A stretch of DNA of 40,465 bases, taken from positions 1 to 40,465 of the forward strand of contig NJDG01000010.1 of the NCBI GenBank assembly GCA_002254885.1, given 5' to 3'. This document shows positions 6,756-25,588 of the stretch, one piece after another; the stretch's first letter is position 1; each line of letters begins with the position of its first letter. The notes beneath the pieces are model-generated. The model worked only from the letters and a program-made list of their open reading frames with translations, was not told the origin of the DNA and searched no databases. The stretch comes from Thermoplasmatales archaeon ex4572_165. GTDB taxonomy: Archaea > Thermoplasmatota > E2 > DHVEG-1. A program made the position numbers and the translations under genes.

Positions 6756-8687
6756 ATGATAAAAAAAGTCTTATCAATCCTTTGTGTGCTATCATTTCTA
6801 AACATTAATATGAGTGTAATTGAATCGGATAGTATTTCTTTTGGAGTAACAGATAATCAAAATCAAACAAATAAAACACAACTTAAAACAGAAAAATTTT
6901 TGATTTCGGATATTGAAATAATAGATAGTGGTGATTACGTTTATATTGATATTAAGTCTGATTCTTATATATCTGAACCCGGAAAACCTTTGTTGCCATT
7001 AATCTCAAAAGAATTTTCTTTTCCATTAGGGACAAAAATTTTAGATGTCAATGTTAATTGTGAATATGTAGAACATATTCTATCAAAGAAAATTTTACCC
7101 TCACCAAAACCATCAATTATTTCAAATGAATTCGTACAAAATAATAAATTGCTTAATGAAAGTATATATAATTCCCCATCAGTTTATCCATCAGAACCTT
7201 TTAGCTTTTCAAGGGGTGCAGGATTAAAAAACAATAAACATGTTCTTTTTTTAAATGTCAATATTGCACCCCTTTGTTACCCCATTGAAAATACAATAAA
7301 AATCCCTAAAACCATTGAAATAATCATTGAATATCAATTACCTACCGATTCAATTTTTACTGCTGATGAATATGATATGGTAATAATTACATCAGAAATA
7401 TTTTCATCAAGTATTCAACCATTGATAGATCATAAAAATGCATATGGTATTCAATCATTTTTAAAAACAACAGAAGAAATATTTAATGAATATGAAGGGA
7501 GAGATGATACTGAAAAAATTAAATATTTCATCAAGAATTCAATTGAGGAATTTGGTATAAAATATGTCATGTTGATTGGCAATGATCAAATTGTTCCGAT
7601 GAGAAAATGTGCAAATACTGTGATAACCGGTGTTATTAACTGGCATTACATCCTCTCTGATCTTTACTATGCAGACATCTACGATAATAAAGGTGAATTT
7701 TCCTCATGGGATACAAATCAAAATGAAAAATATGGCGAATGCTATTATGATTACCGTTCCTATCCAATCGATATGGAAATAATCGACATTGTTGATTTCT
7801 ATCCAGATGTTGGCATAGGCAGACTACCATGTTCATCTATCAATGAATGTAACATCATCGTAGATAAAATCATACAATATGAAAAACAGACATATCATGA
7901 AAACTGGTTCAATACCATCCTGCTTTTAGGTGGAGATACATTCCCAGATAATTTATCATTATATGAAGGAGAATGGTTTCATGAACAATATACTGCCCCA
8001 ACAATGAAACAACAAGGATTTACCATAGAAAAACTATTTACTTCAAAAAGTACATTTTCCCCCACCATCATCAATGAAAACATCAATAATGGAGCAGGAT
8101 TTCTCAACTATGTAGGTCATGGATACACAGATAGTATCGGAACATCTTCACCTCATGGAATAGAACATATGTCGTATTCACTCTCAGATATCAATGCATT
8201 ATCCAATGATTATAGGCTGCCTATATGCTTTTTTGATGCTTGCTTAACAGGTAAAATAGATTATGACATTTTGGATAAATTAATGCTACCATTGATTTCA
8301 TTATATCCAACTCCATTTATGCATTTCATGAAAAGAATCTTAGATTCAATTGAAACACAAAGGCATTTTCCTTGTTTTTCAGGATCATTTATAACAAAAC
8401 AATCAGGAGGATGTATTGCAGCTGTTGCAGCAACACAACCAGGGCTTGTTGGCTTTGCGATTGATGATGAAGAAATCATAGATATTGTCTTTGGATCATC
8501 AATTTTGAACCGATTTTTTTTCGAGTCATATGAACCCGGAATTATTCTTTCAGATATGTTTATTGAATCTCAGAATTTATATATTAACTTCATTAGAAAC
8601 CTAGATAGTATGATAGTTGATTGTGTAACGCTCCAGGAGTTTAACCTCTTTGGTGACCCCAGTTTAAAGGTTGGAGGATACCCATAG
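6756..8687 (+). CDS. Secreted gingipain-like (C25) cysteine peptidase
   Basis: This 643-aa protein starts with a signal peptide (about residues 1-20). A beta-rich propeptide-like region runs to about 200 (EPGKPLLPLISKEFSFPLG is typical). The caspase-like C25 catalytic domain begins at DMVIITSE. Catalytic His455 lies in NYVGHGYTDS and Cys496 in CFFDACLTG. The domain closes with the common C25 ending NLFGDPSLKVGGYP, and no further C-terminal modules follow. TAATGGAG just upstream gives a ribosome site for the chosen ATG. Likely substrate is extracellular protein cleaved after basic residues, as in gingipains, though specificity cannot be read here. The protein would be exported and cell-surface or secreted. 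It is divergent from the tandem Lrp-like regulator. Confidence 0.92.
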   Translation: MIKKVLSILCVLSFLNINMSVIESDSISFGVTDNQNQTNKTQLKTEKFLISDIEIIDSGDYVYIDIKSDSYISEPGKPLLPLISKEFSFPLGTKILDVNVNCEYVEHILSKKILPSPKPSIISNEFVQNNKLLNESIYNSPSVYPSEPFSFSRGAGLKNNKHVLFLNVNIAPLCYPIENTIKIPKTIEIIIEYQLPTDSIFTADEYDMVIITSEIFSSSIQPLIDHKNAYGIQSFLKTTEEIFNEYEGRDDTEKIKYFIKNSIEEFGIKYVMLIGNDQIVPMRKCANTVITGVINWHYILSDLYYADIYDNKGEFSSWDTNQNEKYGECYYDYRSYPIDMEIIDIVDFYPDVGIGRLPCSSINECNIIVDKIIQYEKQTYHENWFNTILLLGGDTFPDNLSLYEGEWFHEQYTAPTMKQQGFTIEKLFTSKSTFSPTIINENINNGAGFLNYVGHGYTDSIGTSSPHGIEHMSYSLSDINALSNDYRLPICFFDACLTGKIDYDILDKLMLPLISLYPTPFMHFMKRILDSIETQRHFPCFSGSFITKQSGGCIAAVAATQPGLVGFAIDDEEIIDIVFGSSILNRFFFESYEPGIILSDMFIESQNLYINFIRNLDSMIVDCVTLQEFNLFGDPSLKVGGYP

Positions 8688-12583: not shown

Positions 12584-12904
12584 ATGCCTGAATGCAGACG
12601 CAATAGAGGGCGATGTCGAGGTAGACGATGGATAAGCCAACTACCTGAAAATCACCCTGAAAATCAACCATATGAAAAACTTGAACCTAATTCAATACGT
12701 TTAACCATTGAAGAAATCGAAATCATACGACTCATTGACTTAGAAAATATGACCCAACAAGAGGCAGCAGCACAACTAGGCGTATCAAGAAAAACATTAT
12801 GGAATGATTTACAGCGAGTAAGAAGAAAAGTAGCTCATGCACTTGTTCATGGTCACCCAATTTGTGTTGCAGGTGGAGCATATAAACTAAGAATAAATGA
12901 ATAG
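12584..12904 (+). CDS. DUF134 family HTH transcriptional regulator
   Basis: The 106-aa protein has a Cys/Arg-rich start (MPECRRNRGRCRGRRW), the conserved LTIEEIEIIRLIDLENMTQ, then a sigma-70-region-4-like HTH (AAAQLGVSRKTLWNDL) and the ending HGHPICVAGG. This is the DUF134 pattern. DUF134 proteins are small DNA-binding proteins often placed first in clusters of NifX-like and Mrp/MinD ATPase genes, and the conserved Cys and His may bind metal or an Fe-S cluster. It is followed at 12 nt by the DUF5320 gene. It probably regulates the cluster that runs to 19.4 kb. Confidence 0.9.
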   Translation: MPECRRNRGRCRGRRWISQLPENHPENQPYEKLEPNSIRLTIEEIEIIRLIDLENMTQQEAAAQLGVSRKTLWNDLQRVRRKVAHALVHGHPICVAGGAYKLRINE

Positions 12905-12916
12905 GAGATAAAAAAA

Positions 12917-13267
12917 ATGGCAAGAGGCGATAAAACAGGACCTGAAGGTTATGGCCCTCGCAGTGGGAGAGGCTTAGGATATTGCAATGATTATGATAGC
13001 CCAGGTTACACAAAAAACCTTCCTCATGGTGGCCGTGGTTTCAGGCAGAGAGATGGCAGAGGTTTTAGATGTGGAAGAGGCTTTGGATATCATAGGACGA
13101 ATTATCCAAAATATCCCACCAATTATTCATATGAACCAGAACATACCATAAACAATGATGAAGAAAAAAGCTATCTTAAACAAGCAATTAACCATCTTGA
13201 ATCTGAACTTTTATCACTTAGAGATCGGTTAAAACAACTTGGAAAAAACAAAGAAGAATCTCCATAA
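12917..13267 (+). CDS. DUF5320 family protein
   Basis: The 116-aa protein begins MARGDKTGPEGYGPRSGRG, the typical DUF5320 N-terminus (M-x-R/G-G-D-x-T-G-P). A Gly/Arg/Tyr-rich region follows, and a C-terminal coiled coil ends it (YLKQAINHLESELLSLRDRL). AGGAGAT lies before the ATG. Function is unknown; the family recurs next to NifX-like and MinD ATPase genes. The gene is cotranscribed with DUF134 at 12 nt spacing. A 59-nt gap to the next gene contains AGGCCTCAAATAGGCC, a short dyad. Confidence 0.82.
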   Translation: MARGDKTGPEGYGPRSGRGLGYCNDYDSPGYTKNLPHGGRGFRQRDGRGFRCGRGFGYHRTNYPKYPTNYSYEPEHTINNDEEKSYLKQAINHLESELLSLRDRLKQLGKNKEESP

Positions 13268-13326
13268 AATTATATTATGAGGATTTCTTTATAGGCCTCA
13301 AATAGGCCAATTTGGAGAGACTCTGA

Positions 13327-14139
13327 ATGAATCAGAAAACAATGCAAGATGATAACGTTGATAAAAACCTTAATCAAATCAAAAATATAATTGCGGTTCT
13401 AAGCGGTAAAGGTGGAGTTGGAAAAAGTACTGTTGCAACAAATCTAGCGCTAACCTTGGCTGAACAAGGATATCAAGTAGGCATATTAGACAGTGACATC
13501 CATGGTCCAACAATTCCAACAATGCTAGGTTTAGAATCAGAACGGATAACACAATCAGAAGATGGTTTAAAACCAATTCAAGCAAGCAAAAACCTCAAAG
13601 TTCTTTCTATGGGATTTCTCATCAACAACAAAGATGATCCAATTATCTGGAGAGGCCCTATGAAGATGGGTGCAATAAAACAACTACTTGGAGATTTCAA
13701 CTGGGGAACTCTTGACTATCTCATCATTGATCTGCCACCTGGAACCGGCGATGAACCATTAAGTATTGCTCAACTCATCCCAAAAATGACTGGGGCAATC
13801 ATTGTAACAACACCCCAAGACGTGGCTCTTGTCAGTGTAAGAAAATCAATAATGTTTGTTAAAAAAATAAACATCCCCCTTATTGGTATTATTGAAAATA
13901 TGAGTGGTTTTTCTTGCCCACATTGTGGAAAAGAAATCAACATTTTTAAATCAGGTGGGGGGAAAAAAGCTGCCTTGAACCTTAATGTTCCATTTTTAGG
14001 AACAATTCCCCTTGATCCCCATATTGTTGAAGCAGGTGATGCAGGGAGTACTATTCTTGAAAAAGATGCGCAAATCACAAAATCATTATATAAAATAAGT
14101 GAAAACATGAAAAAACAATTAAAAAACAAGGGAGATTGA
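13327..14139 (+). CDS. Mrp/NBP35-type P-loop ATPase, Fe-S cluster carrier
   Basis: This 270-aa protein carries a deviant Walker A, SGKGGVGKST (residues 26-34), a DSDIHGPTIP motif, DLPPGTGDEP and a C-terminal CPHC (Cys197, Cys200). These are the marks of Mrp/ApbC/NBP35 ATPases, which bind a labile [4Fe-4S] cluster at a dimer interface and hand it to apoproteins. Length and motif order are complete. It acts in the cytoplasm. The gene sits between two DUF5320-like genes and ahead of the NifX-like pair, which fits cluster or cofactor transfer. Confidence 0.93.
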   Translation: MNQKTMQDDNVDKNLNQIKNIIAVLSGKGGVGKSTVATNLALTLAEQGYQVGILDSDIHGPTIPTMLGLESERITQSEDGLKPIQASKNLKVLSMGFLINNKDDPIIWRGPMKMGAIKQLLGDFNWGTLDYLIIDLPPGTGDEPLSIAQLIPKMTGAIIVTTPQDVALVSVRKSIMFVKKINIPLIGIIENMSGFSCPHCGKEINIFKSGGGKKAALNLNVPFLGTIPLDPHIVEAGDAGSTILEKDAQITKSLYKISENMKKQLKNKGD

Positions 14140-14145
14140 ATAATT

Positions 14146-14349
14146 ATGCCTGGTGGAGATGGTACCGGTCCTATTGGCGGCGGCCTTGGTCGCGGCGGTG
14201 GCGGTCGTGGTAGAGGTAGTGGTTTTGGACAAGGTCATGATGGTGAATGCCGTTGTCCAAATTGTGGTCATCATGAACCTCATCAACTGAGTGTCCCCTG
14301 TTATAACAGAAAATGTTCTAAATGTGGAGCACCTATGACTCGTGCTTAA
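14146..14349 (+). CDS. Small Gly-rich zinc-ribbon protein
   Basis: The 67-aa protein starts MPGGDGTGPIGGGLGRGGGG, the same opening as DUF5320 proteins. It ends with two CxxC pairs, CRCPNCGHHEP and CYNRKCSKCGAPM, likely a zinc ribbon or Fe-S site. It begins 6 nt after the Mrp gene, with GGGAG upstream. A role as a metal-binding partner or adaptor of the cluster proteins is inferred from context. Confidence 0.78.
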   Translation: MPGGDGTGPIGGGLGRGGGGRGRGSGFGQGHDGECRCPNCGHHEPHQLSVPCYNRKCSKCGAPMTRA

Positions 14350-14400
14350 TAGATAAAGATAAAATGAAAAGTGAATAATAGAAAAAATGGAGATGAAAAT

Positions 14401-14769
14401 ATGAAAATTGCAGTATCAGCAACAAGTAATGATTTAGATGGAGAGGTAGATCAGCGATTTGGACGCTGTAAATATTTTTTATTAATTGATTCTGAAAACA
14501 TGGATTTCAAAGTAATAGAAAATGAAAGCATCATGGCATCTGGAGGGGCAGGAATAAAAGCGGCAGAAACAATAGTAAACAACGGAGCTGAAATTCTTAT
14601 AACTGGAAATGTTGGACCTAATGCATTTCAAACGCTTTCTGCGGGAGGAATCAGAATATTTACTGGGGCAAGTGGAGCAATAAAAGAATCAATTGACCAA
14701 TATAAAAATGGTGAACTAAAAGAGACAGGGGGCGCTAATGTTAGTAGTCACTCTGGGATGAAGAGGTAA
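14401..14769 (+). CDS. NifX/NifB-C-like dinitrogenase cofactor family protein
   Basis: The 122-aa protein (MKIAVSATSNDLDGEVDQRFGRCKYF, read in part) matches the dinitrogenase iron-molybdenum cofactor-binding fold: the DQRFGRC strand, AAETIVNNGAEILITGNVGPNA and the terminal GAIKESIDQYKNGEL helix. The frame opens further upstream, but ATG 14401 follows GGAGATG and starts at the conserved residue. Family members bind Fe-S or Fe-Mo-S metal clusters or act as small carriers. No nif structural gene is visible. It is paired with a second paralogue 6 nt downstream. Confidence 0.9.
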   Translation: MKIAVSATSNDLDGEVDQRFGRCKYFLLIDSENMDFKVIENESIMASGGAGIKAAETIVNNGAEILITGNVGPNAFQTLSAGGIRIFTGASGAIKESIDQYKNGELKETGGANVSSHSGMKR

Positions 14770-14775
14770 AAGAAT

Positions 14776-15177
14776 ATGAGAATTTGTATACCAACCATGG
14801 GAGAAAACGGGCTTGATAACCCAATTGGTGAACATTTTGGCAGAGTACCAACATATACAGTTGTTGATCTTGAAACAAATGAAGTGAAAGTAATTGCTAA
14901 CACAAGTGAACATGCAGGTGGCACAGGTTATCCCCCTGAAATAATGAAAAGAGAAGGAGTAGATATTATGATTTGCAGAGGTCTAGGAAGACGGGCAATT
15001 ACGATGTTTGAACAGATGGGAATTGAGGTTTATATTGGTGCTTCTGGAACAGTAAAAGACGCAGTAGATGCATTCAAACAGGGAACTCTTCAAAAAGCTA
15101 GTGAAGGTGATGCCTGTGGACAACATGCATTTAGAGATGAACATCATCATGAACATAATAAGGGCAATTGTCAATAA
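14776..15177 (+). CDS. NifX-like family protein with His-rich tail
   Basis: This 133-aa second NifX-like protein begins MRICIPTMGENGLDNPIGEH, with FGRVPTY, GVDIMICRGLGRRA, GIEVYIGASGTVKDA and AFKQGTL in the family order. It differs from its neighbour by a C-terminal extension rich in His and Cys (DEHHHEHNKGNC), which suggests metal binding. The ribosome site GAGG precedes it. It would work in the cytoplasm with the Mrp and MinD-type ATPases. Confidence 0.9.
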   Translation: MRICIPTMGENGLDNPIGEHFGRVPTYTVVDLETNEVKVIANTSEHAGGTGYPPEIMKREGVDIMICRGLGRRAITMFEQMGIEVYIGASGTVKDAVDAFKQGTLQKASEGDACGQHAFRDEHHHEHNKGNCQ

Positions 15178-15252
15178 ACAAAGAATGTAGTTTATCATAA
15201 AAATTATAAACTTTATAATGAAAATTTATTAAAAGATTTATATGGAGATGTT

Positions 15253-15780
15253 ATGTCAATATATGCATTTGAAAATAAGCAACCAACAATCGGAGAGGGC
15301 TCTTTCATATATGAATCAGCAGATGTAATTGGTAATGTGAAACTTGGAAAAAACTGTTATATTGGCCCTGGTGCTAGAATCCGAGGAGACTATGGAACAA
15401 TAACTATTGGTGATAACACAGCAATTGAAGAAAATGTTGTGATTCATGCTAGACCCAATGACATCACAGTTATTGGAAGTTATGTAACAATAGGCCATGC
15501 AGCAATTATTCATAATGCAACAATAAATGACTGGGCAGTGATTGGTATGGGATCAATTGTTAGTGACTGGGCTGAAATTGGGCAATGGGCCGTTGTTGCA
15601 GAAGGGGCAGTTGTGAAAAATAAACAGAAAATTCCAGATAAATCAATCGCTGTTGGTATCCCTGCAAAAATTATTTCAGAAACAACGCCAGAATATGAAA
15701 AACAATGGACAGAATTCAAAAATGTATATGTAGATCTTGCCCGGGAAAGATTGCCTAATTCACTTAAAAAAATTAAATAA
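15253..15780 (+). CDS. Gamma-carbonic-anhydrase-like left-handed beta-helix protein
   Basis: This 175-aa hexapeptide-repeat protein shows many (I/V)-G-x4 turns and the three His positions of gamma carbonic anhydrases: His65 (VVIHARPND), His82 and His87 (GHAAIIHNATI), spaced as in Cam. It would bind zinc or iron and form a trimer. Members may hydrate CO2 or have lost activity and act as assembly factors. GGAGATG precedes the ATG. It interrupts the Fe-S themed genes after a 75-nt gap that may hold a secondary promoter (TATAAACTTTATAATG). Confidence 0.88.
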   Translation: MSIYAFENKQPTIGEGSFIYESADVIGNVKLGKNCYIGPGARIRGDYGTITIGDNTAIEENVVIHARPNDITVIGSYVTIGHAAIIHNATINDWAVIGMGSIVSDWAEIGQWAVVAEGAVVKNKQKIPDKSIAVGIPAKIISETTPEYEKQWTEFKNVYVDLARERLPNSLKKIK

Positions 15781-15799
15781 ATAAGAGGGAAAAATTAAG

Positions 15800-16663
15800 A
15801 TGAAAACGTATCTTGAATGTATCCCGTGTTTTATCCGTCAGTCGTTGGAAGCTGCGCGAATGGCAACAGATGATGAGGCAATTCATGAAGAAATCATAAA
15901 GGATGTCATGAAATATCTTCAATCTATTTCTTTTAGCAATTCTCCACCTGAAATTTCAAGAGAGGTACATAATATAATTAAAATCAAATCCAATTCATCA
16001 GACCCATATAAAAAAGTTAAAGACCAATCAAATAAAATGGCTGAAAATCTATATCCTCGCCTTAAAGAACTGATAGAAGAATCTGATGATTCACTACTTA
16101 TGGCAATTAAACTATCCATTGTTGGTAATGTCATTGATTTTGGTACAAGCAACCGATTCAATGTTGAAGATATGCTTGATAAAGCAATAAATCAAGACTT
16201 TAATGATAATGCATATCCTCAATTCAAAGAATCATTAACGCGTGCAAAAACCATCCTTTATTTAGCAGATAACACAGGAGAAATCTTCTTTGATAAGCCA
16301 CTACTTGAAGAACTTGTAAAAAGAAATAAAAAAATTACATATGTAATAAAAGCCAATCCAATTATTAATGATGCGACAATTGATGATGCGAAATTTGCAG
16401 GTATTGACAAACTTGCAAAAATCCTTGAGGGAGACAAAGGACAAAACAAGTCAACACCGGGGATATTGCTGAAATATGCATCAAATGAGTTTTTAGATCT
16501 ATTTAATTCCGTTGATATGGTGATAAGTAAAGGTCAGGGTAACTATGAATCATTGAATGAGAGTTCAAGAAAGATTTTTTTCCTTTTAATGGTTAAATGT
16601 CCTCTTGTTGCAAGAGATATGGGAACTGAACTGGCTCGTCTAGTTTTAGAGGTGAAAGAATGA
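15800..16663 (+). CDS. DUF89/ARMT1-like damage-control phosphatase family protein
   Basis: The 287-aa protein has the DUF89 landmarks in order: MKTYLECIPCFIRQSLEAAR, GNVIDFGTSNRF, ILYLADNTGEIFFDKPLLEE (metal-binding Asp and Asn), VIKANPIINDAT, KGQGNYESLNE and FFLLMVKCPLVAR. This is the archaeal AF1104-like group. DUF89 enzymes are metal-dependent phosphatases acting on damaged or reactive phosphometabolites; the substrate here is unknown. It overlaps the next gene by 4 nt, so it is translationally coupled to the MinD ATPase. Confidence 0.92.
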   Translation: MKTYLECIPCFIRQSLEAARMATDDEAIHEEIIKDVMKYLQSISFSNSPPEISREVHNIIKIKSNSSDPYKKVKDQSNKMAENLYPRLKELIEESDDSLLMAIKLSIVGNVIDFGTSNRFNVEDMLDKAINQDFNDNAYPQFKESLTRAKTILYLADNTGEIFFDKPLLEELVKRNKKITYVIKANPIINDATIDDAKFAGIDKLAKILEGDKGQNKSTPGILLKYASNEFLDLFNSVDMVISKGQGNYESLNESSRKIFFLLMVKCPLVARDMGTELARLVLEVKE

Positions 16664-17496
16664 TTATATCAGTTGCGAGTGGAAAAGGTGGAACCGGAAA
16701 AACAACTATTGCAACAAATCTTGCATTGAGTCTTAAACAAACTCAGTTTATTGATTGTGATGTTGAAGAACCTAATGCTAATATTTTCTTTAAGGCAAAA
16801 ATTGATGAAAGAAAAGATGTAACTGTTGAAATACCCATAATTGATGATGAAAAATGTGATTATTGTGGTAAATGTTCCCAGTTTTGCACATATAATGCTC
16901 TTGCGGTTGTCCCTTCAAAAGTCCTTGTTTTCCCAGAGTTATGTCATTCCTGCAGAGGATGTGGACTTGTATGCCCAAAATCTGCAATTTCTTGGGGGAA
17001 ACGATCGGTGGGAACAATTGAACATGGTGTTGTTGATGGAGTTGATTTCTATCATGGTTTACTACATGTTGGTGAAATCCAAACAATCCCTGTGATAAAA
17101 GCTTTGAAGAAAAAGATTGATAAAACAAAAAATGTCATACTAGACGCGCCTCCTGGAACGTCATGCCCAGTTATTGAAACAGTAGGGATATCAAATTACT
17201 GTATCCTTGTCACAGAGCCAACACCCTTTGGCCTTCATGATTTAAAACTTGCGGTCGAGGTTGTAAAACAATTAAAGATTCCTTTTGGAGTTATAATCAA
17301 TCGTGATGGTGTTGGCGATAAAAAAGTAGAACATTTTTGCCAAAGTGAAAAAATAACTATCCTCTTAAAAATTCCACATAGCACAGAAATTGCACATTTA
17401 TACTCAAAAGGGATTGCTTTTGCATGCGAGTTAAAAGAATGGGATGATGAATTTAAAAACCTTTTTCATAAAATACAAGAGGAGATTAAAAAATGA
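16660..17496 (+). CDS. MinD-superfamily P-loop ATPase with inserted 2[4Fe-4S] ferredoxin domain
   Basis: The 278-aa protein starts MIISVASGKGGTGKTTIATN (deviant Walker A) and carries an inserted bacterial-type ferredoxin with eight Cys: C66, C69, C72, C76 (CDYCGKCSQFC) and C95, C98, C101, C105 (CHSCRGCGLVC). DAPPGTSCPV and VTEPTPFGLHDL complete the ATPase. The family is widespread in anaerobes beside NifX-like genes and is thought to couple nucleotide use to Fe-S or metal cluster handling; no reaction is established. It overlaps both DUF89 and the second paralogue by 4 nt, indicating a heteromeric pair. Confidence 0.92.
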   Translation: MIISVASGKGGTGKTTIATNLALSLKQTQFIDCDVEEPNANIFFKAKIDERKDVTVEIPIIDDEKCDYCGKCSQFCTYNALAVVPSKVLVFPELCHSCRGCGLVCPKSAISWGKRSVGTIEHGVVDGVDFYHGLLHVGEIQTIPVIKALKKKIDKTKNVILDAPPGTSCPVIETVGISNYCILVTEPTPFGLHDLKLAVEVVKQLKIPFGVIINRDGVGDKKVEHFCQSEKITILLKIPHSTEIAHLYSKGIAFACELKEWDDEFKNLFHKIQEEIKK

Positions 17497-18356
17497 AACA
17501 GATAACGGTGATCAGTGGAAAAGGAGGCACAGGAAAAACCTCTGTGACAGCAGCATTTGCATCATTATCTACTAACGCGGTCCTTGCAGATTGTGACGTT
17601 GATGCAGCAGATCTTCATTTAATCCTAAAACCCAAGATCAAAAAAACCATAGGTTTTCATGGTCTAAAAATCGCTTCTATTGACAAAGAAACATGTATTG
17701 ACTGTAAAAAATGTTATACAAATTGTAGGTTTGACGCAATTGATGAAGACATCAATTTAATTAAAGAATCTTGTGAAGGATGTGGTGTCTGTGAATATGT
17801 CTGCCCTGTTGATGCCATTAAGATGGTTGATAGAGATTCTGGTTTTTCTTATATTTCTGAGACACGTTTTGGACCTATGGCCCATGCAAAATTAAACACA
17901 AGTGAAGAGGCCTCCGGAAAGCTAGTTACAGAGGTAAGAGAACAAGCAAAAAAAATTGCAGAAGAAAAAAATAAAGATCTAATCATTATTGATGGACCGC
18001 CTGGAATTGGATGTCCTGTGATTTCAGCAATTTCTGGTGTTGACCTAGTATTGATTGTTACTGAGCCGACATTATCTGCAATTCACGATCTTGAACGAAT
18101 ACTTGGAGTAACAGAGCATTTCAACATTCCCTCAATTGTTTGTATAAACAAATTTGATATTAACAGCGAAAATACCCAAAAAATCAAGGATTATTGTAAA
18201 GATAATGATATTTCGGTTGTAGGTTTGCTTCCATATGATACAGTTGTGACTGATGCCATGGTTCAAGAAAAAACCGTGATTGAATACTCAAAAGGAGTTC
18301 TATCAGATAACCTACTCAATATGTGGAATAAGATAAAAAAGAAGATGGATCTATGA
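17493..18356 (+). CDS. Second MinD-superfamily ATPase with ferredoxin insert
   Basis: This 287-aa paralogue has MKQITVISGKGGTGKTS at the start, eight ferredoxin Cys (C68, C71, C74, C78 in CIDCKKCYTNC; C94, C97, C100, C104 in CEGCGVCEYVC), DGPPGIGCPV and VTEPTLSAIHDLER. The conserved segment TRFGPMAHAKLNTSEEASGKL marks this subgroup. It overlaps the preceding paralogue and the following NifU-like scaffold by 4 nt each, so the three are probably made in fixed proportion. Confidence 0.92.
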   Translation: MKQITVISGKGGTGKTSVTAAFASLSTNAVLADCDVDAADLHLILKPKIKKTIGFHGLKIASIDKETCIDCKKCYTNCRFDAIDEDINLIKESCEGCGVCEYVCPVDAIKMVDRDSGFSYISETRFGPMAHAKLNTSEEASGKLVTEVREQAKKIAEEKNKDLIIIDGPPGIGCPVISAISGVDLVLIVTEPTLSAIHDLERILGVTEHFNIPSIVCINKFDINSENTQKIKDYCKDNDISVVGLLPYDTVVTDAMVQEKTVIEYSKGVLSDNLLNMWNKIKKKMDL

Positions 18357-18784
18357 TCAAAGATAAAGATTTCAACAAAATGGTTAATGATATTCAAAAA
18401 AAAATAGAACATTATGAGGAAACAGATTTCTCAAAGAAAGTGATTGACGAATACAGAAATCCCAACAATTTTTACGCTATTGAAAATCCTGATGTTACAG
18501 GAGAAATTAAGGGTCCCTGTGGAGATACAATGAAAATTATGTTAAATGTTGAAAATGACATAGTTGTTGATATTGGTTTTTTAACAGATGGTTGTTGTAC
18601 AAGTATTGCATGTGGCAGTATGCTTACTAAGATGGTACAAGGGAAAACTTTGAAAGAAGTCTCCATAATTACAAGTGAAAAATTAAACGATGCATTGGAT
18701 GGTCTACCTGAAAACCATGTGCATTGTACCGTTCTTGCAGTAAATACATTAAAAAAAGCTCTTAACAAATTTGATAGAAGATGA
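18353..18784 (+). CDS. NifU/IscU-like Fe-S scaffold protein
   Basis: The 143-aa protein contains the scaffold motifs VIDEYRNPNNFYAIENPDVTG, GPCGDTM (Cys56), DGCCTSIACGS (Cys81/82 and Cys87) and HCTVLAVNTL (Cys125), matching the three cluster-ligand Cys of IscU. It has an N-terminal extension of about 25 residues. Scaffolds assemble [2Fe-2S] or [4Fe-4S] clusters for carriers such as Mrp. No cysteine desulfurase gene is next to it, so sulfur must come from elsewhere. Confidence 0.9.
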   Translation: MIKDKDFNKMVNDIQKKIEHYEETDFSKKVIDEYRNPNNFYAIENPDVTGEIKGPCGDTMKIMLNVENDIVVDIGFLTDGCCTSIACGSMLTKMVQGKTLKEVSIITSEKLNDALDGLPENHVHCTVLAVNTLKKALNKFDRR

Positions 18785-18794
18785 TTATTGTAAA

Positions 18795-19442
18795 ATGAAA
18801 CTAACCATAGTTTATGATAATGATATATACAAGAAAAACATTGATTTAAAATCAGATTGGGGTTTCTCGTGTTTAATTGAAACAGAAGGTAAAACTATTT
18901 TATTTGACACAGGAGCAAATGGCGAGATACTTTTGAATAATATGCGACTTCTTGGCATAGATCCTTATATTATTGATATAATTGTGATATCTCATGAACA
19001 TTGGGATCACAATGGAGGATTGAAAGCATTAGGGTTAATTGTTGATGATATTGAATTGTATCGACTGGAAGATAAACCATGTGGAAACATGAACCTTAAA
19101 AATATTGGAATGTCTCAGAAGATTACAAAAGGAGTATATACAACAGGAAAATTAACGGGCACTCCAAAAGATGAACAATCACTAATTCTCCAAGGAAAAG
19201 ATGGTTGGTATGTTCTCGCAGGGTGTTCGCATTCAAGTGTGGAAAAAATATTAAATGTTGCCAGAACTTATGGCGATGTAGTTGGTTTGATTGGTGGATT
19301 ACATGGTTTTAATAACTTTCATGTTTTAAATGATTTAAAACTTGTTTGCCCAGTTCATTGTAGCAAATATAAAAAAAAGATACATGAATTATTTCCAGAT
19401 GCTAGTATTAATGCAGGCGTAGGTAAAATAATCGAGATTTAA
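18795..19442 (+). CDS. Metallo-beta-lactamase-fold hydrolase
   Basis: The 215-aa protein has the MBL metal motif SHEHWDHNGG (HxHxDH), an upstream FDTGANGE loop, a later GCSHSSVE and the ending GGLHGF/CPVHC with further His ligands. This corresponds to the COG1237-type subgroup (annotated after dihydropterin-linked ribofuranosyl phosphate synthase), whose members often sit beside MinD ATPase/NifX clusters. The frame reaches a TTG at 18771 inside the NifU gene; ATG 18795 begins at the conserved start. It is the last gene of the cluster, followed by a 132-nt gap. Confidence 0.9.
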   Translation: MKLTIVYDNDIYKKNIDLKSDWGFSCLIETEGKTILFDTGANGEILLNNMRLLGIDPYIIDIIVISHEHWDHNGGLKALGLIVDDIELYRLEDKPCGNMNLKNIGMSQKITKGVYTTGKLTGTPKDEQSLILQGKDGWYVLAGCSHSSVEKILNVARTYGDVVGLIGGLHGFNNFHVLNDLKLVCPVHCSKYKKKIHELFPDASINAGVGKIIEI

Positions 19443-19574
19443 GGAAAAGTTTTGGAAAAAACTGCATCCTCTAAAAAAATATCTACAAATATTCATTTAT
19501 TCACTGTCAAATCAGTTAAACCTTAAATATACATGTAAACAGGAAAAAATACCATAAAAAAGAAGGAAATAAAA

Positions 19575-20744
19575 ATGAAAGATGATTGGAGAATATCAGA
19601 TAGAGTTCTGCAGATACAAAAATCTGCAATCCATGAAATGACAAGATTATCAAAAGAAGTAGAGGATGTTGCATTCTTATCCTGGGCAAAACCTACTTCC
19701 GATACACCTGAACATATAAAAAACGCAGCTATTGAAGCAATAAAAAAAGGATTAGTAGGTGGGTATTCGGAGAACGCAGGTCTTTTAAATTTGCGAAAAG
19801 AGATAGTTAAGAAACTAAAAAAAGATAACAATATTGATGCAGAAGTATCACAGTTACTGGTAACCATTGGTGCTATTGAAGGATTATCTTCTGCCATTAT
19901 GACCCTGGTTAACCCTGGCGATGAAGTAATTCTTCCATCTCCAACATATTCCACCCATATTCAACAGGTTATTCTTGCATCAGGTAAACCTATTCTTGTT
20001 CCCACAATTGAAGAACAAGGATTTTCCTTAGATATTGAAGGTATAAGAAATGCAGTAACTTCTAAGACAAAAGCAATTATTTATTGCTCCCCTAGCAACC
20101 CAGCTGGTGCTGTTTTTTCAGAAAAACAACTTCGCCAGTTAGCAGATATTGCCCTTGAGCACAACTTGATGGTAATTACAGATGAAGCATATGAATATTT
20201 TACGTATGATGATCATAAACATTTTAGTATCGCTTCGATTCCAGAAATGAAAAAGAATGTAGTTAGTTGTTTTACTTTTACAAAAAGCTATGCGATGACC
20301 GGTTGGAGAATTGGATATCTACATGCAGATGAAACACTGATTCCCCAGATAACCAAAGCACATATTCCTTTTGCCATTTGTGCCACCGTAGTTTCTCAAT
20401 ATGCGGCACTTGCAGCATTACAAGGTTCTCAAGAATGTATTGTAAAATTCAGAGAAAAATATCTTTCTGCTCGTGATTTAATGTGTAAGAGACTTGATGA
20501 TCTTAGCTCAGTTTTTGAATATAAAAAGCCAAGAGGTTCATATCTAATGTTCCCTAAAATATTATTGAAAGAAGGAAAAGATTCAACAATGTTTTGTAAG
20601 AAACTATTAAGAGAAGCGAAAGTTTCAACGACTCCCGGAATTGCATTTGGACCAACAGGTGAAAGTCATCTAAGACTGTCTTTTTGTGTTAACGAAGAAA
20701 CGATAAATAAAGCATTTGATAGAATGGAGATATATTTTAAATAA
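19575..20744 (+). CDS. PLP-dependent class I/II aminotransferase
   Basis: The 389-aa protein has the fold-type I signature: GGYSENAGLLNLRKEI, YCSPSNPAGAV (Asn contacting PLP), TDEAYEYFTYD (Asp binding the pyridine nitrogen) and TKSYAMTGWRIGY with the PLP Lys. HLRLSFC near the end provides the substrate-carboxylate Arg. Length is normal. It catalyses amino transfer between an amino acid and a 2-oxoacid, in keeping with amino acid fermentation; specificity is not determinable. AAGGAAAT before the ATG supports the start. Confidence 0.94.
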   Translation: MKDDWRISDRVLQIQKSAIHEMTRLSKEVEDVAFLSWAKPTSDTPEHIKNAAIEAIKKGLVGGYSENAGLLNLRKEIVKKLKKDNNIDAEVSQLLVTIGAIEGLSSAIMTLVNPGDEVILPSPTYSTHIQQVILASGKPILVPTIEEQGFSLDIEGIRNAVTSKTKAIIYCSPSNPAGAVFSEKQLRQLADIALEHNLMVITDEAYEYFTYDDHKHFSIASIPEMKKNVVSCFTFTKSYAMTGWRIGYLHADETLIPQITKAHIPFAICATVVSQYAALAALQGSQECIVKFREKYLSARDLMCKRLDDLSSVFEYKKPRGSYLMFPKILLKEGKDSTMFCKKLLREAKVSTTPGIAFGPTGESHLRLSFCVNEETINKAFDRMEIYFK

Positions 20745-20856
20745 TAATTTTACAATGAAAGGAAAATGAAATGAACAATGGTTAATTATACTATTTTACG
20801 TAAGAAAAAACATTGATTTGAAATATTGATTGAACCATAAAAAATAGTGAGATAGT

Positions 20857-22095
20857 ATGAACAGTAAAAAAGAGATCTACCTAATATTTCTTTGGCATGC
20901 TTTTTTTTTGGCTATTACTATGTCAATGATTGATTTTAATACGGTTTTCCCCGCTTTAATTTCTTCTTTAACAGGTTCTAAAATTGTTTTTGGTGCTATT
21001 TATTCAGTTATCTTTGGTGTTCCCCTTATTTTCAATGTAATCTTTGGCCACTATCTTTCTTCAAAAGAATACAAGAAAAAATATCTGCTATTTGGTATAA
21101 CTCTTAGAGCATTTTCCTTTTTGGGAATGGCCTTTTTTACCCACAAATATGGAAATCAAAACCCTACATTGGTAGTTATAAGTTTATTTTTCTTGGTGTT
21201 TTTATTTTCATTTAGCGGTGGATTTGCAGGTATTGTTTATACTGATTTAATTGGCAAGTTTTTAAAGAAAGGAGAAAGAGGGAAATTGTATTCATTTAAA
21301 CAGTTTTTTAGCAGTGTAGGTTTCTTAATCGGTGGACTGATCATTGCATATGCTTTCAATGTTTCAAATATTACTTATCCAAATAATTATGCTCTAATTT
21401 TGTTTATGGGTTTCATCGGACTTCTTATTGCATCTGGCCCCTTTTGGTATATCAAAGAGCCTGCTTCTAAAACAGAGAATCAAGAGTCATTTTTTGTTTT
21501 TATTAGAAAAATCCCATCGATACTAAAATCAGACAGAAGTTTTTCAAGATTTATTCTTGTTGAAAATCTTACAAGTTTTAGTTTAATGATTTTGCCTTTT
21601 TACATCATATATGCTCAGGAAATCTTTGATAAAACACTTCTCAGTTTCTATCTTTTTGCAATTATTGGCGGTTCCATTGTTTCAAATATTTTTTGGGGTA
21701 TGATTTCAGAGAAATTCAGTTCAAAAAAAATTATGAAAGTATGTATTTTTTTGGGTGCTTTAATACCTATTCTCTCTTTATTGATAGTGCCATTAGGTCC
21801 ATATTATTTTTCGATAATATTTATTTTGGTTGGTTTCATTAAAAGTGGCAGAGTCGTTGGATTTAATCCATATCTTCTTGATATTGCTCCTGAAAAACAA
21901 AGAACCTGTTACCTGGGGATACGTGGAACGTTAAGCATTCTAACTATTGTTCTTCCAATGCTTGGCGGCTTGTTTATTGAGTTAATGGGATATTCTTTTA
22001 CATTTGTTATTGTTAGCCTAGTAATGTTTATTTCATTGCTTTTATTGAAAGATAAAAATGTTTTAAAGTCAGATATGATGTCCCATGGAAGATAA
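20857..22095 (+). CDS. MFS transporter, 12 membrane segments
   Basis: The 412-aa integral membrane protein has about 12 hydrophobic segments and a charged central loop (IKEPASKTENQESF) dividing two halves, as in the major facilitator superfamily. KKGERGKLYSFKQFFSS matches the cytoplasmic loop between helices 4 and 5. Substrate is unknown. It is followed after 25 nt by the ferredoxin-DUF1858 fusion gene, so they may be cotranscribed. Confidence 0.85.
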   Translation: MNSKKEIYLIFLWHAFFLAITMSMIDFNTVFPALISSLTGSKIVFGAIYSVIFGVPLIFNVIFGHYLSSKEYKKKYLLFGITLRAFSFLGMAFFTHKYGNQNPTLVVISLFFLVFLFSFSGGFAGIVYTDLIGKFLKKGERGKLYSFKQFFSSVGFLIGGLIIAYAFNVSNITYPNNYALILFMGFIGLLIASGPFWYIKEPASKTENQESFFVFIRKIPSILKSDRSFSRFILVENLTSFSLMILPFYIIYAQEIFDKTLLSFYLFAIIGGSIVSNIFWGMISEKFSSKKIMKVCIFLGALIPILSLLIVPLGPYYFSIIFILVGFIKSGRVVGFNPYLLDIAPEKQRTCYLGIRGTLSILTIVLPMLGGLFIELMGYSFTFVIVSLVMFISLLLLKDKNVLKSDMMSHGR

Positions 22096-22120
22096 TAGGA
22101 TTAATTAGGAGTATCTAAAA

Positions 22121-24019
22121 ATGAAAAGATACAAAGTATCCAAAGAATGTATAGGCTGTAGAGCATGTGCAGAAGTTGCAGATTACAATTTTGAAATAAA
22201 TGAAAATAATCAAGCGTATCTGAAAAAGCAACCTGAAAATAAAAACGAGGTGGATAAATGCCAAAAAGCTCTGGATGTTTGCCCTGTTAATGCAATTTCA
22301 GTAACCGATGGTAAAAACCAAGATGTTGTAAAAGCAATATTGGCAACATCTAATGTTAAAACAACGTTAGATAAACATCCTGAATTAAAAGATGTATTAC
22401 TTGACCTTTCACCCAAGTTTAAAAGAATGCAAAATCCTTTGGTATATAATACACTAGCACGTTTTGCTAATTTTAATGATGCTGCAAATGTTACTGGTGT
22501 TTCGATTTGTGAAATTCTTCATATAATTAACAAACATCTTGGCGTTGAAAAAAAGTTATTAAAGAGTATGCCAGAATGCATTAAAGAAACAAAAGAAAGA
22601 CCCGAAAGTAAAAGTGTTGATGTGTCGTGGGAAGAAAGCGATGAGCGTTATATCTATAATGATGGCACAATCGAGGATTTGATCCAAAAGGTATCCAACC
22701 TTCCACCACAAAATAACATAGTGATTATATCAACAGTAAAACCTGATGAATTACTTAAGGTAATAAATGGTCTAAATTTAATTTTTAATATTGAAAAAAA
22801 CAGAGAATATAGAATATCAATTTTTAATCCTCAAAAGAAAGAAAAAATGGTTCCATGGCAGAAACGAAAGGAACATTTTGAAATTCTTGATGTTAGAACA
22901 ATGACAACAGATCCATTTGATGTTATCATAAAAAAGGCATATGACGTTGAAGAAGATAGTGGAATTACCCTAGTCCAAAGTTTTGAGCCATATCCAATGA
23001 TTAACATGCTTTCAGAAATGGGATTTGAACATCTCACTGAGCAGAAAGAACCAGGGGAATTTTGGATATATCTTCACAAAAAAATAAGTGAAAAGCAAAA
23101 GGATGAAACATCTTCTACGAAAGTTGATGTAGTAATACAGTCTGCAACACCAGTTGCATATCCTGTTATTATGCGTTTGCTTCAATCAGAAAAAATTAGG
23201 AATAACATTAACATTAAAGAACTTAAAGTATGGGAAGAAACCGAAAAGCATCTTGCTTGGATTACAAGCAGTAAAGCTGATATTAGTTTCTCTTCGCTTA
23301 TCACATCAGTAAAATTACGAAATAATGACATTAAAATACCTGCTCTTTTTGTTTGGGATAATTTTGTGTTGTTAAGTCGTTTTAAAGCAGAAAGTTTAAA
23401 AGATTTTAAGGGGAAAGAAATTTACACGCCTTTGTTTGAAGAAGCCCCACCTGCAAAAATTACTAAATATCTAATTAAGGCAAGTGGTTTGAATCCTGAT
23501 GATTTTAAATTTGTTTTTGGAAAACCTTTTGGTAGACCCGAAGAGATTTACAAAGATTTTGTTACGGGGAAAACTGATACTGTAATTCTTCGTGAACCTG
23601 AGGCAAGTTATGCTATAAAAATAATGCAAGATAGAAATGAAGAAATCGCAATATTATCATTTAATAAAATTTGGAATGAGATTAATCCAGGTTTTGGAAG
23701 TTTTCCTAATGCAGGTTTGGTATTAAAGGGTGAATTTGCAAGAAAATATCCTGAATTGACCAAAGTATTTTTAGAAGAGCTTGAATCAGCTATTAATTGG
23801 GTTAATATGAATAGAAAAGTTGCTGCTAAACTTTCTTTTGATATGATGCGTCAGCCTGTTGACAGGGTTGAATTATTTTTAGCTCGTGTCAATTTTGATT
23901 ATATAAGTGGGAAACCTTTAATTGAAAAAGTGAAGCAATATTTTGATATCTTAAATCAACATGATGTTGTAAATATGAAAATTGATAAAGAATTTCTTGA
24001 TATTTTCAGGATGGATTAA
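22121..24019 (+). CDS. Ferredoxin-DUF1858-DUF2249-substrate-binding-like fusion protein
   Basis: The 632-aa protein lacks a signal peptide and has four parts. Residues 1-62 are a ferredoxin-like domain with CIGCRAC and CQKALDVCPVNAI. Residues 75-142 resemble DUF1858 (HPELKDVLLDLSPKF, ITGV-like ANVTGVSICEIL). Residues 250-322 resemble DUF2249 (ILDVRTMTTDPFDVI, GITLVQSFEP, FWIYLHKK). Residues 335-632 resemble an ABC-type periplasmic binding fold of the SsuA/ThiY kind (QSATPVAYPVIMRL, REPEASYAIK, NAGLVLKGEFARKYPE). Residues 150-250 are unassigned. The binding domain is normally extracytoplasmic, so a cytoplasmic version joined to a redox centre is unusual. TAGGAG precedes the ATG. A ligand-sensing or redox-linked role is inference. 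Confidence 0.82.
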   Translation: MKRYKVSKECIGCRACAEVADYNFEINENNQAYLKKQPENKNEVDKCQKALDVCPVNAISVTDGKNQDVVKAILATSNVKTTLDKHPELKDVLLDLSPKFKRMQNPLVYNTLARFANFNDAANVTGVSICEILHIINKHLGVEKKLLKSMPECIKETKERPESKSVDVSWEESDERYIYNDGTIEDLIQKVSNLPPQNNIVIISTVKPDELLKVINGLNLIFNIEKNREYRISIFNPQKKEKMVPWQKRKEHFEILDVRTMTTDPFDVIIKKAYDVEEDSGITLVQSFEPYPMINMLSEMGFEHLTEQKEPGEFWIYLHKKISEKQKDETSSTKVDVVIQSATPVAYPVIMRLLQSEKIRNNINIKELKVWEETEKHLAWITSSKADISFSSLITSVKLRNNDIKIPALFVWDNFVLLSRFKAESLKDFKGKEIYTPLFEEAPPAKITKYLIKASGLNPDDFKFVFGKPFGRPEEIYKDFVTGKTDTVILREPEASYAIKIMQDRNEEIAILSFNKIWNEINPGFGSFPNAGLVLKGEFARKYPELTKVFLEELESAINWVNMNRKVAAKLSFDMMRQPVDRVELFLARVNFDYISGKPLIEKVKQYFDILNQHDVVNMKIDKEFLDIFRMD

Positions 24020-24105
24020 AATTACTGTGCATCATGAGTTTAATCATATTATTTCTTTCAACATTTAGAAACCTTTCGTTGAATATTTTAGTGATTTATC
24101 GTTGA

Positions 24106-24138
24106 TTGTGTTATTATTTTACACAACCATTATATAGT
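24106..24138 (+). promoter_or_regulatory. Promoter with dyad TTGTGT-N9-ACACAA and TATA box
   Basis: The dyad TTGTGT (24106-24111) and ACACAA (24121-24126) is followed directly by CATTATATAGT, a strong archaeal TATA context. The same arrangement, with identical 9-nt spacing, occurs at 28872. It precedes the 42-aa peptide and the TDT transporter. An operator abutting the TATA box could serve an activator or repressor. Confidence 0.65.
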
Positions 24139-24188
24139 TGAAAACATTCGCAATAATTAGAAAAAAATCATCTGGAGGAAAGACAAAA

Positions 24189-24317
24189 ATGATCAAAGAC
24201 ATAAATGAATTAATAAAAACTCTGGAATGTGATGAATTAAAATTTTTAGAATTCATAGAGCCCAAATATGAAAAAGAAATTAAGATTAATATGTCAAAAA
24301 AAAATTGTGCATTATGA
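24189..24317 (+). CDS. Small peptide, 42 aa
   Basis: A short frame begins ATG at 24189, with the strong ribosome site GGAGGAAAG 8-10 nt upstream and a promoter at 24106. It encodes a mostly helical, acidic/lysine-rich peptide, MIKDINELIKTLECDEL onward, ending KKNCAL, with two Cys. No membrane segment is visible and I do not recognise a family. The strong translation signals in a 400-bp gap make it likely real, but it could be a leader peptide for the TDT transporter gene 104 nt downstream or a truncated remnant. Confidence 0.55.
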   Translation: MIKDINELIKTLECDELKFLEFIEPKYEKEIKINMSKKNCAL

Positions 24318-24421
24318 AATCTAGAAAAATCGGGCAATAATTCAAAATATCATAGATTAACACTACGAAATAATTGTATTAAAGAAACTTGTTTAAAACT
24401 AAATAATGGAGATTATAAAAT

Positions 24422-25543
24422 ATGGAAGAAAGAATAGATAAAAAAATGCGTTACAGCTGGATTAAAAATTTTGGCCCTCAATGGTTTTCAGCAGTAATGG
24501 GTACAGGCGCACTTTCCATATCAATGAATATTGCATCAGATTATTATTCACCATTTTCATATATTTCACAGTTTTTTTTGTTGTTTTCAATTATCATGTT
24601 TTTGGTTTTTATTGTACCTTGGACAAGTAGATTTATTACTAATTATAACGATGTAAAAAAAGATTTATTTCATCCAGTTCTTGGAAATTTTTTTCCAACA
24701 ATGCCAATAAGCCTGGTTATTATTGGAATAGCACTCGATCGTGTTGGTCCAAGTATCATAGATATCTCTGTTGTTAACACGATTTCATTATATTTATTTA
24801 TTATTGGATCAATTGGTATCTTTATTTTTGGATGGATGATTTTATCAATAATATTTACACATAAAAAAATCAAGTTAGAACATGCAAATTATGGATGGTT
24901 TATACCACCCGTCTCTCACCTTATCATACCTGTTTTAGGTTTTTCATTAATGAAACATTATACAGATGCTTTGGTTGATAATATTTTATTTTTTATATCT
25001 ATGATTGGTTTTAGCGTTGGATTACTTCTGTTTATATTCGTAGGTTCAATTGTTTACCACCGCTATATCTTCCATGAGTTACCACCATCTCATTTAGCTC
25101 CAACTTTTTTAATAGGAATTGCACCTACCTCAATTATTACGATTATTTTAGTAAAAATCCTTGGGGCGCTTTCTGGTTTTTCTATTCTTGGTATAGATTC
25201 ATCTTCTATTTCTGCAGAAATAAAATTATTATCTGTAATGACTTGGGGTTTTTCATTGTGGTGGTTTGCGTTCTTTTTAATTTTATTTGCATATTATGTT
25301 AAAAACAAGAATCATCCTTTTGTTTTTGGATGGTGGGCATATACTTTCCCCCTTGGTGCATTTGTCATTTCAAACGGAGCTATTGGAAATATTATAAATG
25401 TTTCATTTTTCAGTTATATCATTCAATTTGGAAACATATTACTTTTGTTGGTTTGGTGTATAGTATTTTATCTAACTTTGAAACAGACATTAAATGGAGA
25501 AGCTTTTAAAGGTCATGTTGAAGAGGAACAAAATAAAATGTAA
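24422..25543 (+). CDS. TDT family transporter (tellurite-resistance/dicarboxylate, SLAC1-like)
   Basis: The 373-aa protein has about ten membrane helices and the TDT opening FGPQWFSAVMGTGALSI. It also has HPVLGNFFPTMPIS and PPSHLAPTFLIGIAPTS, typical of the TehA/Mae1/SLAC1 fold. Family members transport dicarboxylates, sulfite or anions, or give tellurite tolerance; the substrate here is unknown. GGAGA before the ATG supports the start. It lies downstream of the shared-dyad promoter, and sulfite export would fit a sulfur/redox regulon, but this is inference. Confidence 0.88.
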   Translation: MEERIDKKMRYSWIKNFGPQWFSAVMGTGALSISMNIASDYYSPFSYISQFFLLFSIIMFLVFIVPWTSRFITNYNDVKKDLFHPVLGNFFPTMPISLVIIGIALDRVGPSIIDISVVNTISLYLFIIGSIGIFIFGWMILSIIFTHKKIKLEHANYGWFIPPVSHLIIPVLGFSLMKHYTDALVDNILFFISMIGFSVGLLLFIFVGSIVYHRYIFHELPPSHLAPTFLIGIAPTSIITIILVKILGALSGFSILGIDSSSISAEIKLLSVMTWGFSLWWFAFFLILFAYYVKNKNHPFVFGWWAYTFPLGAFVISNGAIGNIINVSFFSYIIQFGNILLLLVWCIVFYLTLKQTLNGEAFKGHVEEEQNKM

Positions 25544-25588
25544 TAATAGATAAAAATATTAGCTTAGTAAGTATTGGTATATTTAAAC

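Follow-up and report, generated by a model that had tools for sequence, protein, structure and literature searches.

A predicted cytosolic fusion of ferredoxin, DUF1858, DUF2249, and binding-protein modules in a Thermoplasmatales archaeon belongs to a family linked to nitric oxide in bacteria

One open reading frame in a 40,465-nucleotide stretch of DNA from Thermoplasmatales archaeon ex4572_165 (contig NJDG01000010.1; the whole stretch is called the window here) raises the question of what a periplasmic-binding-protein (PBP) fold does when it is joined, inside the cell, to a ferredoxin and to DUF1858 and DUF2249 domains. An initial annotation had read the encoded protein as such a fusion, placed it in the cytoplasm for lack of a signal peptide, noted an MFS transporter beside it, and suggested either a ligand sensor or a redox-gated enzyme. 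Domain and fold searches of residues 1 to 632 upheld the fold and DUF assignments, the predicted fold added a second DUF2249-like module, so that five modules can be described, and the neighboring transporter is real (Table 1).

Table 1. Coordinates of the fusion gene, its modules, and the neighboring features of the window
Feature	Position	Strand	Evidence
ORP-like cluster: DUF134, Mrp/NBP35, NifX-like, ARMT1-like, two MinD-ferredoxin ATPases, NifU-like, MBL hydrolase	12584..19442	+	Pfam; archaeal homologs
Block absent from relative G021: aminotransferase, MFS, fusion gene, SLAC1 (6.1 kb)	19442..25585	+	
MFS transporter, directly upstream	20857..22095	+	Pfam MFS_1, 3.5e-28
Five-module fusion protein, 632 aa	22121..24019	+	ORF, ATG start; 80 related loci
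Single-cluster [4Fe-4S] ferredoxin (predicted), residues 1-62	22121..22306	+	Pfam Fer4_13, 3.5e-13
DUF1858 and its C-terminal extension, residues 76-155	22346..22585	+	Pfam DUF1858, 4.4e-10
C130, H134, C153, near-invariant	22508..22579	+	Conservation across 69 family rows
First DUF2249-like module, residues ~170-245	22628..22855	+	AlphaFold secondary structure, predicted fold only
Second (canonical) DUF2249 module, residues 254-322	22880..23086	+	Pfam DUF2249, 6e-6; relatives up to 3e-20
NMT1/THI5-type PBP domain, residues 333-632	23117..24016	+	Pfam NMT1 in 35/40 relatives; Foldseek; tblastn
SLAC1/TehA-type anion channel, downstream	24422..25543	+	Pfam SLAC1, 3.5e-56

By its motif, the N terminus of the fusion protein is a ferredoxin predicted to bind a single [4Fe-4S] cluster. 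Fer4_13 matched residues 8 to 61 of the window protein, and the cluster ligands C10, C13, C16, and C54, plus P55 (CxxCxxC followed by a distant CP), were present in all 58 ferredoxin-type rows of our conservation alignment, which comprises 69 rows, 11 of them ferredoxin-less. DUF1858 matched residues 76 to 132, and DUF2249 matched residues 256 to 318 at 26.4 bits, slightly below the Pfam cutoff of 29.5; both domains were matched in 39 of 39 scanned relatives. The intervening residues ~170 to 245 had no Pfam match of their own in the window protein. In an AlphaFold model built on the 69-row alignment (mean pLDDT, 84; pTM, 0.58), the ferredoxin was followed by a DUF1858 made of helices, then by two β-α-β-α-β-β modules, and last by a PBP fold with two lobes. 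Fold searches with the middle region were weak overall, although the TusA-like protein TsuB was matched to the DUF2249 module with a Foldseek probability of 1.00 (E ~0.03). C130, H134, and C153 were found in 58/58 ferredoxin-type and 10/11 ferredoxin-less rows and are a possible metal or thiol site. Nowhere in the 632 residues was hydrophobicity sufficient to suggest a signal peptide or a transmembrane segment; together with the N-terminal ferredoxin, this agrees with the cytoplasmic location first proposed.

The C-terminal module was initially matched in the window protein only weakly, by SsuA_fam (5e-4). Across the family the assignment is firmer, NMT1/THI5 reaching a best E value of 1.8e-8 among the matched relatives. 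When the predicted fold was compared with the PDB by Foldseek, Thi5 ranked first (1.7e-13), followed by 3hn0, SsuA, and PqqT (~1e-11 to 1e-13); the matches also included entries titled "Enzyme of biosynthetic pathway," which we take to be MqnA. Exported solute-binding proteins (SBPs) were matched by tblastn at 3e-11, a profile including SBPs matched Thi5 at 1e-8, and a joint family-plus-SBP profile matched 3hn0 at 6e-35. Conservation is highest in the PBP domain, where 74 of 300 positions are invariant in the 58 ferredoxin-type rows; for the ferredoxin, the figure is 9 of 62. Structural residues W412, E492, P493, and W518 are common to the family and exported SBPs; the polar positions E375, K376, H377, D413, R472, R491, and E494 are invariant only within the family and, judged by secondary structure, would lie in motifs where the strands end to form the ligand cleft. 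In Thi5, K62 is the lysine that binds PLP, H66 is the histidine donor, and CCCFC is the iron motif; none of the aligned positions is conserved in the family, and we therefore rejected membership in Thi5. Given these missing residues and the family's own invariant cleft residues, the family probably has a ligand of its own and is unlikely to carry out HMP-P synthase chemistry. A typical exported SBP was rejected as well, on the differing polar cleft residues and the lack of a signal peptide and of ABC partners.

A survey for the same fusion in other genomes found the family at 80 loci (37 to 80% identity), most of them full-length and some ended by contig edges. They span Bacteroidota, Chlorobiota, Campylobacterota (Desulfurellales), Spirochaetota, Fermentibacterota, Fidelibacterota, Chloroflexota, and other phyla, and the carriers are mostly metagenome bins, many with short contigs. 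Because these loci are independent and both flanks of the window gene match the archaeal family, an assembly join or chimera is ruled out. No description of the five-module protein was found in the open-access literature (PMC text), and on this basis its architecture is a new combination of known parts. Two variants of it are informative. A ferredoxin-less subfamily of ~566 residues begins at residue 73, and in four loci a gene for a 62-residue ferredoxin lies just upstream. In five others (L040, L041, L042, L045, and L089), a PepSY_TM protein of ~510 residues with four transmembrane segments and a predicted cytoplasmic C terminus is fused in front, giving ~1,150 residues; elsewhere PepSY_TM is encoded by a separate gene adjoining the fusion gene. 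No ABC partner cluster recurred across the 80 loci, whereas a permease and an ATPase do flank exported relatives. Searches of viral contigs found nothing, and tblastn searches of plasmids gave only partial relatives.

The survey also brought up proteins outside the family. Six loci (L128, L129, L130, L131, L141, and L002) encode a separate family of 230 to 250 residues in which DUF2249 precedes a region that, judged by eye, looks like carboxymuconolactone decarboxylase; these genes adjoin a stand-alone DUF1858 gene, a Crp/Fnr-type gene with Hcp, or peroxiredoxin-, ferritin-, or rubrerythrin-like genes. In two further loci, L132 and L134, relatives of the PBP domain that are exported form, together with an ABC permease, an unexplained transport cluster; next to it are a TonB-type receptor and an 85-residue protein that, again by eye, looks like the iron-hydrogenase regulator of the TM1266 type.

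How did such a protein come to be in an archaeon? The window's genome encodes ribosomal protein S3Ae, which was confined to archaea in our control set, indicating that the host is indeed archaeal. The full-length family was absent from the other genomes of the host's phylum that were searched (G026 gave only a partial DUF2249-type match), and the window protein was 62 to 80% identical to the bacterial relatives compared, 80% being the maximum; on these two grounds, vertical descent was rejected. It groups with a Fidelibacterota protein (L032), near three from Bacteroidota (L031, L033, and L034). In the archaeal relative G021, 24 nucleotides separate the MBL gene from the radical-SAM gene, where the window has a 6.1-kb block between them, and the DNA flanking this block is conserved in the archaeal family. 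The MinD proteins of the window are 77 to 82% identical to those of G021 versus ~39 to 47% to those of Bacteroidales, so these neighbors are native, and transfer of a whole bacterial cluster was rejected; homologs in archaeal relatives show the same for the part of the ORP-like cluster from MinD to MBL. Since the MinD proteins are archaeal-like and the fusion protein is bacterial-like, the fusion gene entered a native archaeal MinD-ferredoxin/NifU cluster by horizontal transfer from bacteria, and the aminotransferase of the block, 63% identical to that of L043, may have arrived with it.

Other contents of the window and its genome are recorded here in their own right. The MFS transporter is 69% identical to that of another archaeal relative and ~30% identical to those beside bacterial homologs, and says little about the role of the fusion protein. 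The block absent from G021 also holds the SLAC1/TehA-type channel gene; enterobacterial NsrR regulons are reported to include TehB- and NarK-like genes (PMC1274295). Many genomes in the archaeal family, G001 and G002 among them, carry a stand-alone DUF1858 gene (~70 to 120 residues), and the window's genome, which is incomplete, yielded no DUF1858 other than that of the fusion gene. The window also carries a fluoride riboswitch (RF01734; 12227-12331, minus strand; 44.4 bits) and a gene at 6756-8687 (plus strand) for a 643-residue protein that, although the genome is archaeal, partially matches the PorU family of type IX secretion sortases (8e-23, below the cutoff); the protein is probably a C25-type peptidase.

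The neighbors of the bacterial genes give an indication of function. A heme-copper nitric oxide (NO) reductase was encoded nearby in 14 of the 80 loci (12 of quinol type and 2 other COX1 proteins with a presumed NO-reductase role), Hcp in 5, and a hemerythrin-PAS protein in 9, for a union of 24 loci. Twelve loci from Bacteroidota and Chlorobiota, like the window, instead surround the family gene with MinD-ferredoxin and NifX gene types; they do not overlap with the 24 at all, and they are not the closest relatives of the window protein. The available flanking DNA of the remaining ~44 shows neither kind of neighbor. With PepSY_TM counted in, the NO-type label changes at least nine times on the family tree, i.e., it is spread across it. 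Two operon types stand out: in one, genes for a PepSY_TM protein and a NO reductase of the quinol type accompany that of an NsrR-like repressor (Rrf2), and the other combines a Crp/Fnr regulator, a ferredoxin, the ferredoxin-less protein, and Hcp. Co-occurrence was calculated in 198 Bacteroidales genomes with shared ancestry ignored. Of 13 ferredoxin-type carriers, 8 had NorB (others, 38 of 185; p = 0.0025) and none had Hcp (others, 91 of 185; p = 0.00026); Hcp was found in all 3 ferredoxin-less carriers, a result without significance by itself (p = 0.12). On plasmids, the exported SBPs nearest to the family adjoin NO-type genes in the two cases examined (NnrS and Crp/Fnr in Aliarcobacter; Hcp and hemerythrin in Paraclostridium); other exported SBPs in Bacteroidales had no visible NO-type neighbors.

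Operator sequences point the same way. Seven exact matches to the HcpR2 consensus box GTAACnnnnGTTAC (PMC1274295) were found in 860 kb, where about one was expected, and all were intergenic. Four lie at -80/-81 of the operon of ferredoxin, ferredoxin-less protein, and Hcp; a neighboring Fe-S protein has two at -70, and the fused gene of L094 has one at -34. Two Desulfurellales members carry an FNR-type box at -84/-88. The Rrf2 regulator of the NO reductase operons has three cysteines in 11 of 11 members, and the palindrome TACTAC-N6-GTAGTA occurs upstream of its gene, again before the NO reductase, and, in three loci, between divergent Rrf2 and PepSY-fusion genes. Two candidate Rrf2-type operators upstream of stand-alone fusion genes (L050 and L044; 0.24 expected under an inflated null) are suggestive. 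Upstream of the window gene, in its archaeal host, no HcpR box was seen. Collectively, these data make a link between the family and NO well supported in bacteria. Because the window's genome is 73% complete and yielded neither Hcp nor NorB, a NO role for the window copy is indirect, drawn only from its family.

Starting from the established architecture, conservation, and operon partners of the family, the operator boxes of its relatives, and its transfer into the archaeon, we propose with moderate confidence that the protein is a cytosolic, ferredoxin-driven redox protein of a nitrosative-stress or Fe-S-protection response that acts on a small ligand bound in the cleft of its PBP domain. The electron flow, the ligand, and the chemistry we infer as follows. 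The ferredoxin domain would supply electrons, as a free FrdX-like ferredoxin would for the sister subfamily; the DUF1858/DUF2249 part, with the domain order of DrpB and the Cys-His-Cys set, would pass on or sense the redox state; and the cleft would be the working site, holding a small, probably anionic ligand or cofactor. The task could be to reduce or clear a small molecule that is derived from or damaged by NO, or to aid Fe-S proteins that NO has attacked, and the window copy would have retained it. Several observations weigh against this proposal: in Bacteroidales, the ferredoxin-fused form avoids genomes with Hcp; the window and 12 other loci have MinD-type instead of NO-type neighbors, and ~44 loci have neither; and Hcp and NorB were not found in the window's genome, at 73% completeness. 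An electron-driven role is favored because the ferredoxin is kept fused or, in several loci, adjacent, and because the PepSY_TM tether joins at its predicted cytoplasmic end. The known members of the PepSY_TM superfamily are heme reductases. One of them, FoxB, uses hemes to carry electrons through the membrane, from a donor that is unknown (PMC13038864). As the target of the electrons, a small molecule derived from or damaged by NO and bound in the cleft is the simplest choice that gives every domain a part. More tentatively, the family may be an unrecognized class of cytosolic ferredoxin-dependent enzymes in which the PBP fold is catalytic on a nitrogen-oxide-derived or NO-damaged molecule, under HcpR/NsrR-like control across bacterial phyla, and which was transferred to an archaeon.

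PBP domains commonly act as ligand sensors and Fe-S clusters are targets of NO, so the same parts could make a sensor: the PBP domain would bind a metabolite, and the ferredoxin and C130/C153 would report redox state or NO damage to a partner, with no catalysis. In favor of this, the gene stands alone in many genomes, and DrpA and DrpB are called putative nitrate sensors in a report that cites earlier work for this (PMC11218638). Against such a reading, Pfam and the AlphaFold model gave no kinase, cyclase, or DNA-binding output domain in the window protein, the operons already contain dedicated NO-type regulators (Rrf2 or Crp/Fnr), and the PepSY_TM fusion and the exchange for a free ferredoxin fit electron transfer better. 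We regard a signaling role as possible but doubtful. The initial choice between a ligand sensor and a redox-gated enzyme was thus reasonable, and the evidence leans toward redox; that annotation missed the link to NO defense and was also without the breadth of the family, the second DUF2249 module, and the transfer from bacteria.

The MinD-type loci raise another alternative, in which the protein would assist the assembly or repair of Fe-S or metal cofactors together with the MinD-ferredoxin/NifX (ORP-like) genes; the link to NO would then be secondary, because NO destroys Fe-S clusters. The repeated pairing argues for a functional link, and this context was reached independently in the window, where the cluster is native and only the fusion protein is near bacterial ones. 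Neighbors of the FeS_assembly_P (SufT-like) and NifU types fit as well, as does the transfer of Fe-S clusters to ORP proteins by MrpORP (PMC6345978). The NO reductase and Hcp operons, however, have NO-type operators and no MinD-ferredoxin or NifX genes, and we consider a primary assembly role unlikely. Least probable is a Thi5- or MqnA-like biosynthetic enzyme of an unrelated cofactor pathway, with a catalytic PBP fold and ferredoxin as its reductant: the Thi5 fold and profile matches and the highly conserved cleft suit it, but the Thi5 residues are missing and no thiamine or menaquinone genes were recognized in the neighborhoods examined.

The redox role that we favor would draw together elements that recur around NO metabolism and have no assigned function. 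Hcp-linked ferredoxins, DUF1858, and DUF2249 are joined here, with a ligand-binding domain, in one conserved polypeptide, and their joint occurrence yields a testable hypothesis, namely, that together they supply electrons to, or report on, a small molecule that NO produces or damages. If true, the binding-protein fold would gain a further cytosolic use, coupled to redox, next to those in Thi5 and MqnA, and a component of NO defense that has gone unannotated would be identified in anaerobes of sediment and sulfidic environments.

Five known systems come closest to the protein or its neighborhood. The ORP complex/MrpORP cluster of Desulfovibrio shares Mrp/NBP35, NifX-like, and paired MinD-ferredoxin genes with the window and, as described (PMC6345978), lacks the fusion protein. 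SBPs of the NMT1/THI5/SsuA type, of which 3hn0 (Parabacteroides BDI_1369) is the nearest solved structure, share the PBP fold and the general layout of the cleft; the fusion protein differs in its polar cleft residues and its lack of export and transport partners. Thi5 is likewise cytosolic with a PBP fold and is the best structural match, apart from its catalytic residues. In the FrdX-Hcp pair of the HcpR regulon, a ferredoxin lies beside Hcp behind an HcpR box (PMC1274295, PMC12915319), and knockdown of frdX in C. difficile causes NO sensitivity (PMC12915319). The ferredoxin-less subfamily sits between just such a pair of genes; in the window the ferredoxin is instead fused, and Hcp and HcpR were not found in the 73% complete genome. 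Finally, DrpB of Thermus thermophilus (PMC6282519) has no ferredoxin, PBP domain, or equivalents of C130 and C153, and is hence a different protein with the same module order, DUF1858 followed by two DUF2249 domains, the first of which is assigned in our family by predicted fold only. The likeness extends to a tblastn match over residues 78 to 236 (E = 3e-5) and to a setting of nitrogen-oxide respiration: DrpB is encoded in nitrate respiration clusters (PMC6282519). DUF2249 proteins are induced in denitrifying haloarchaea (PMC11218638).
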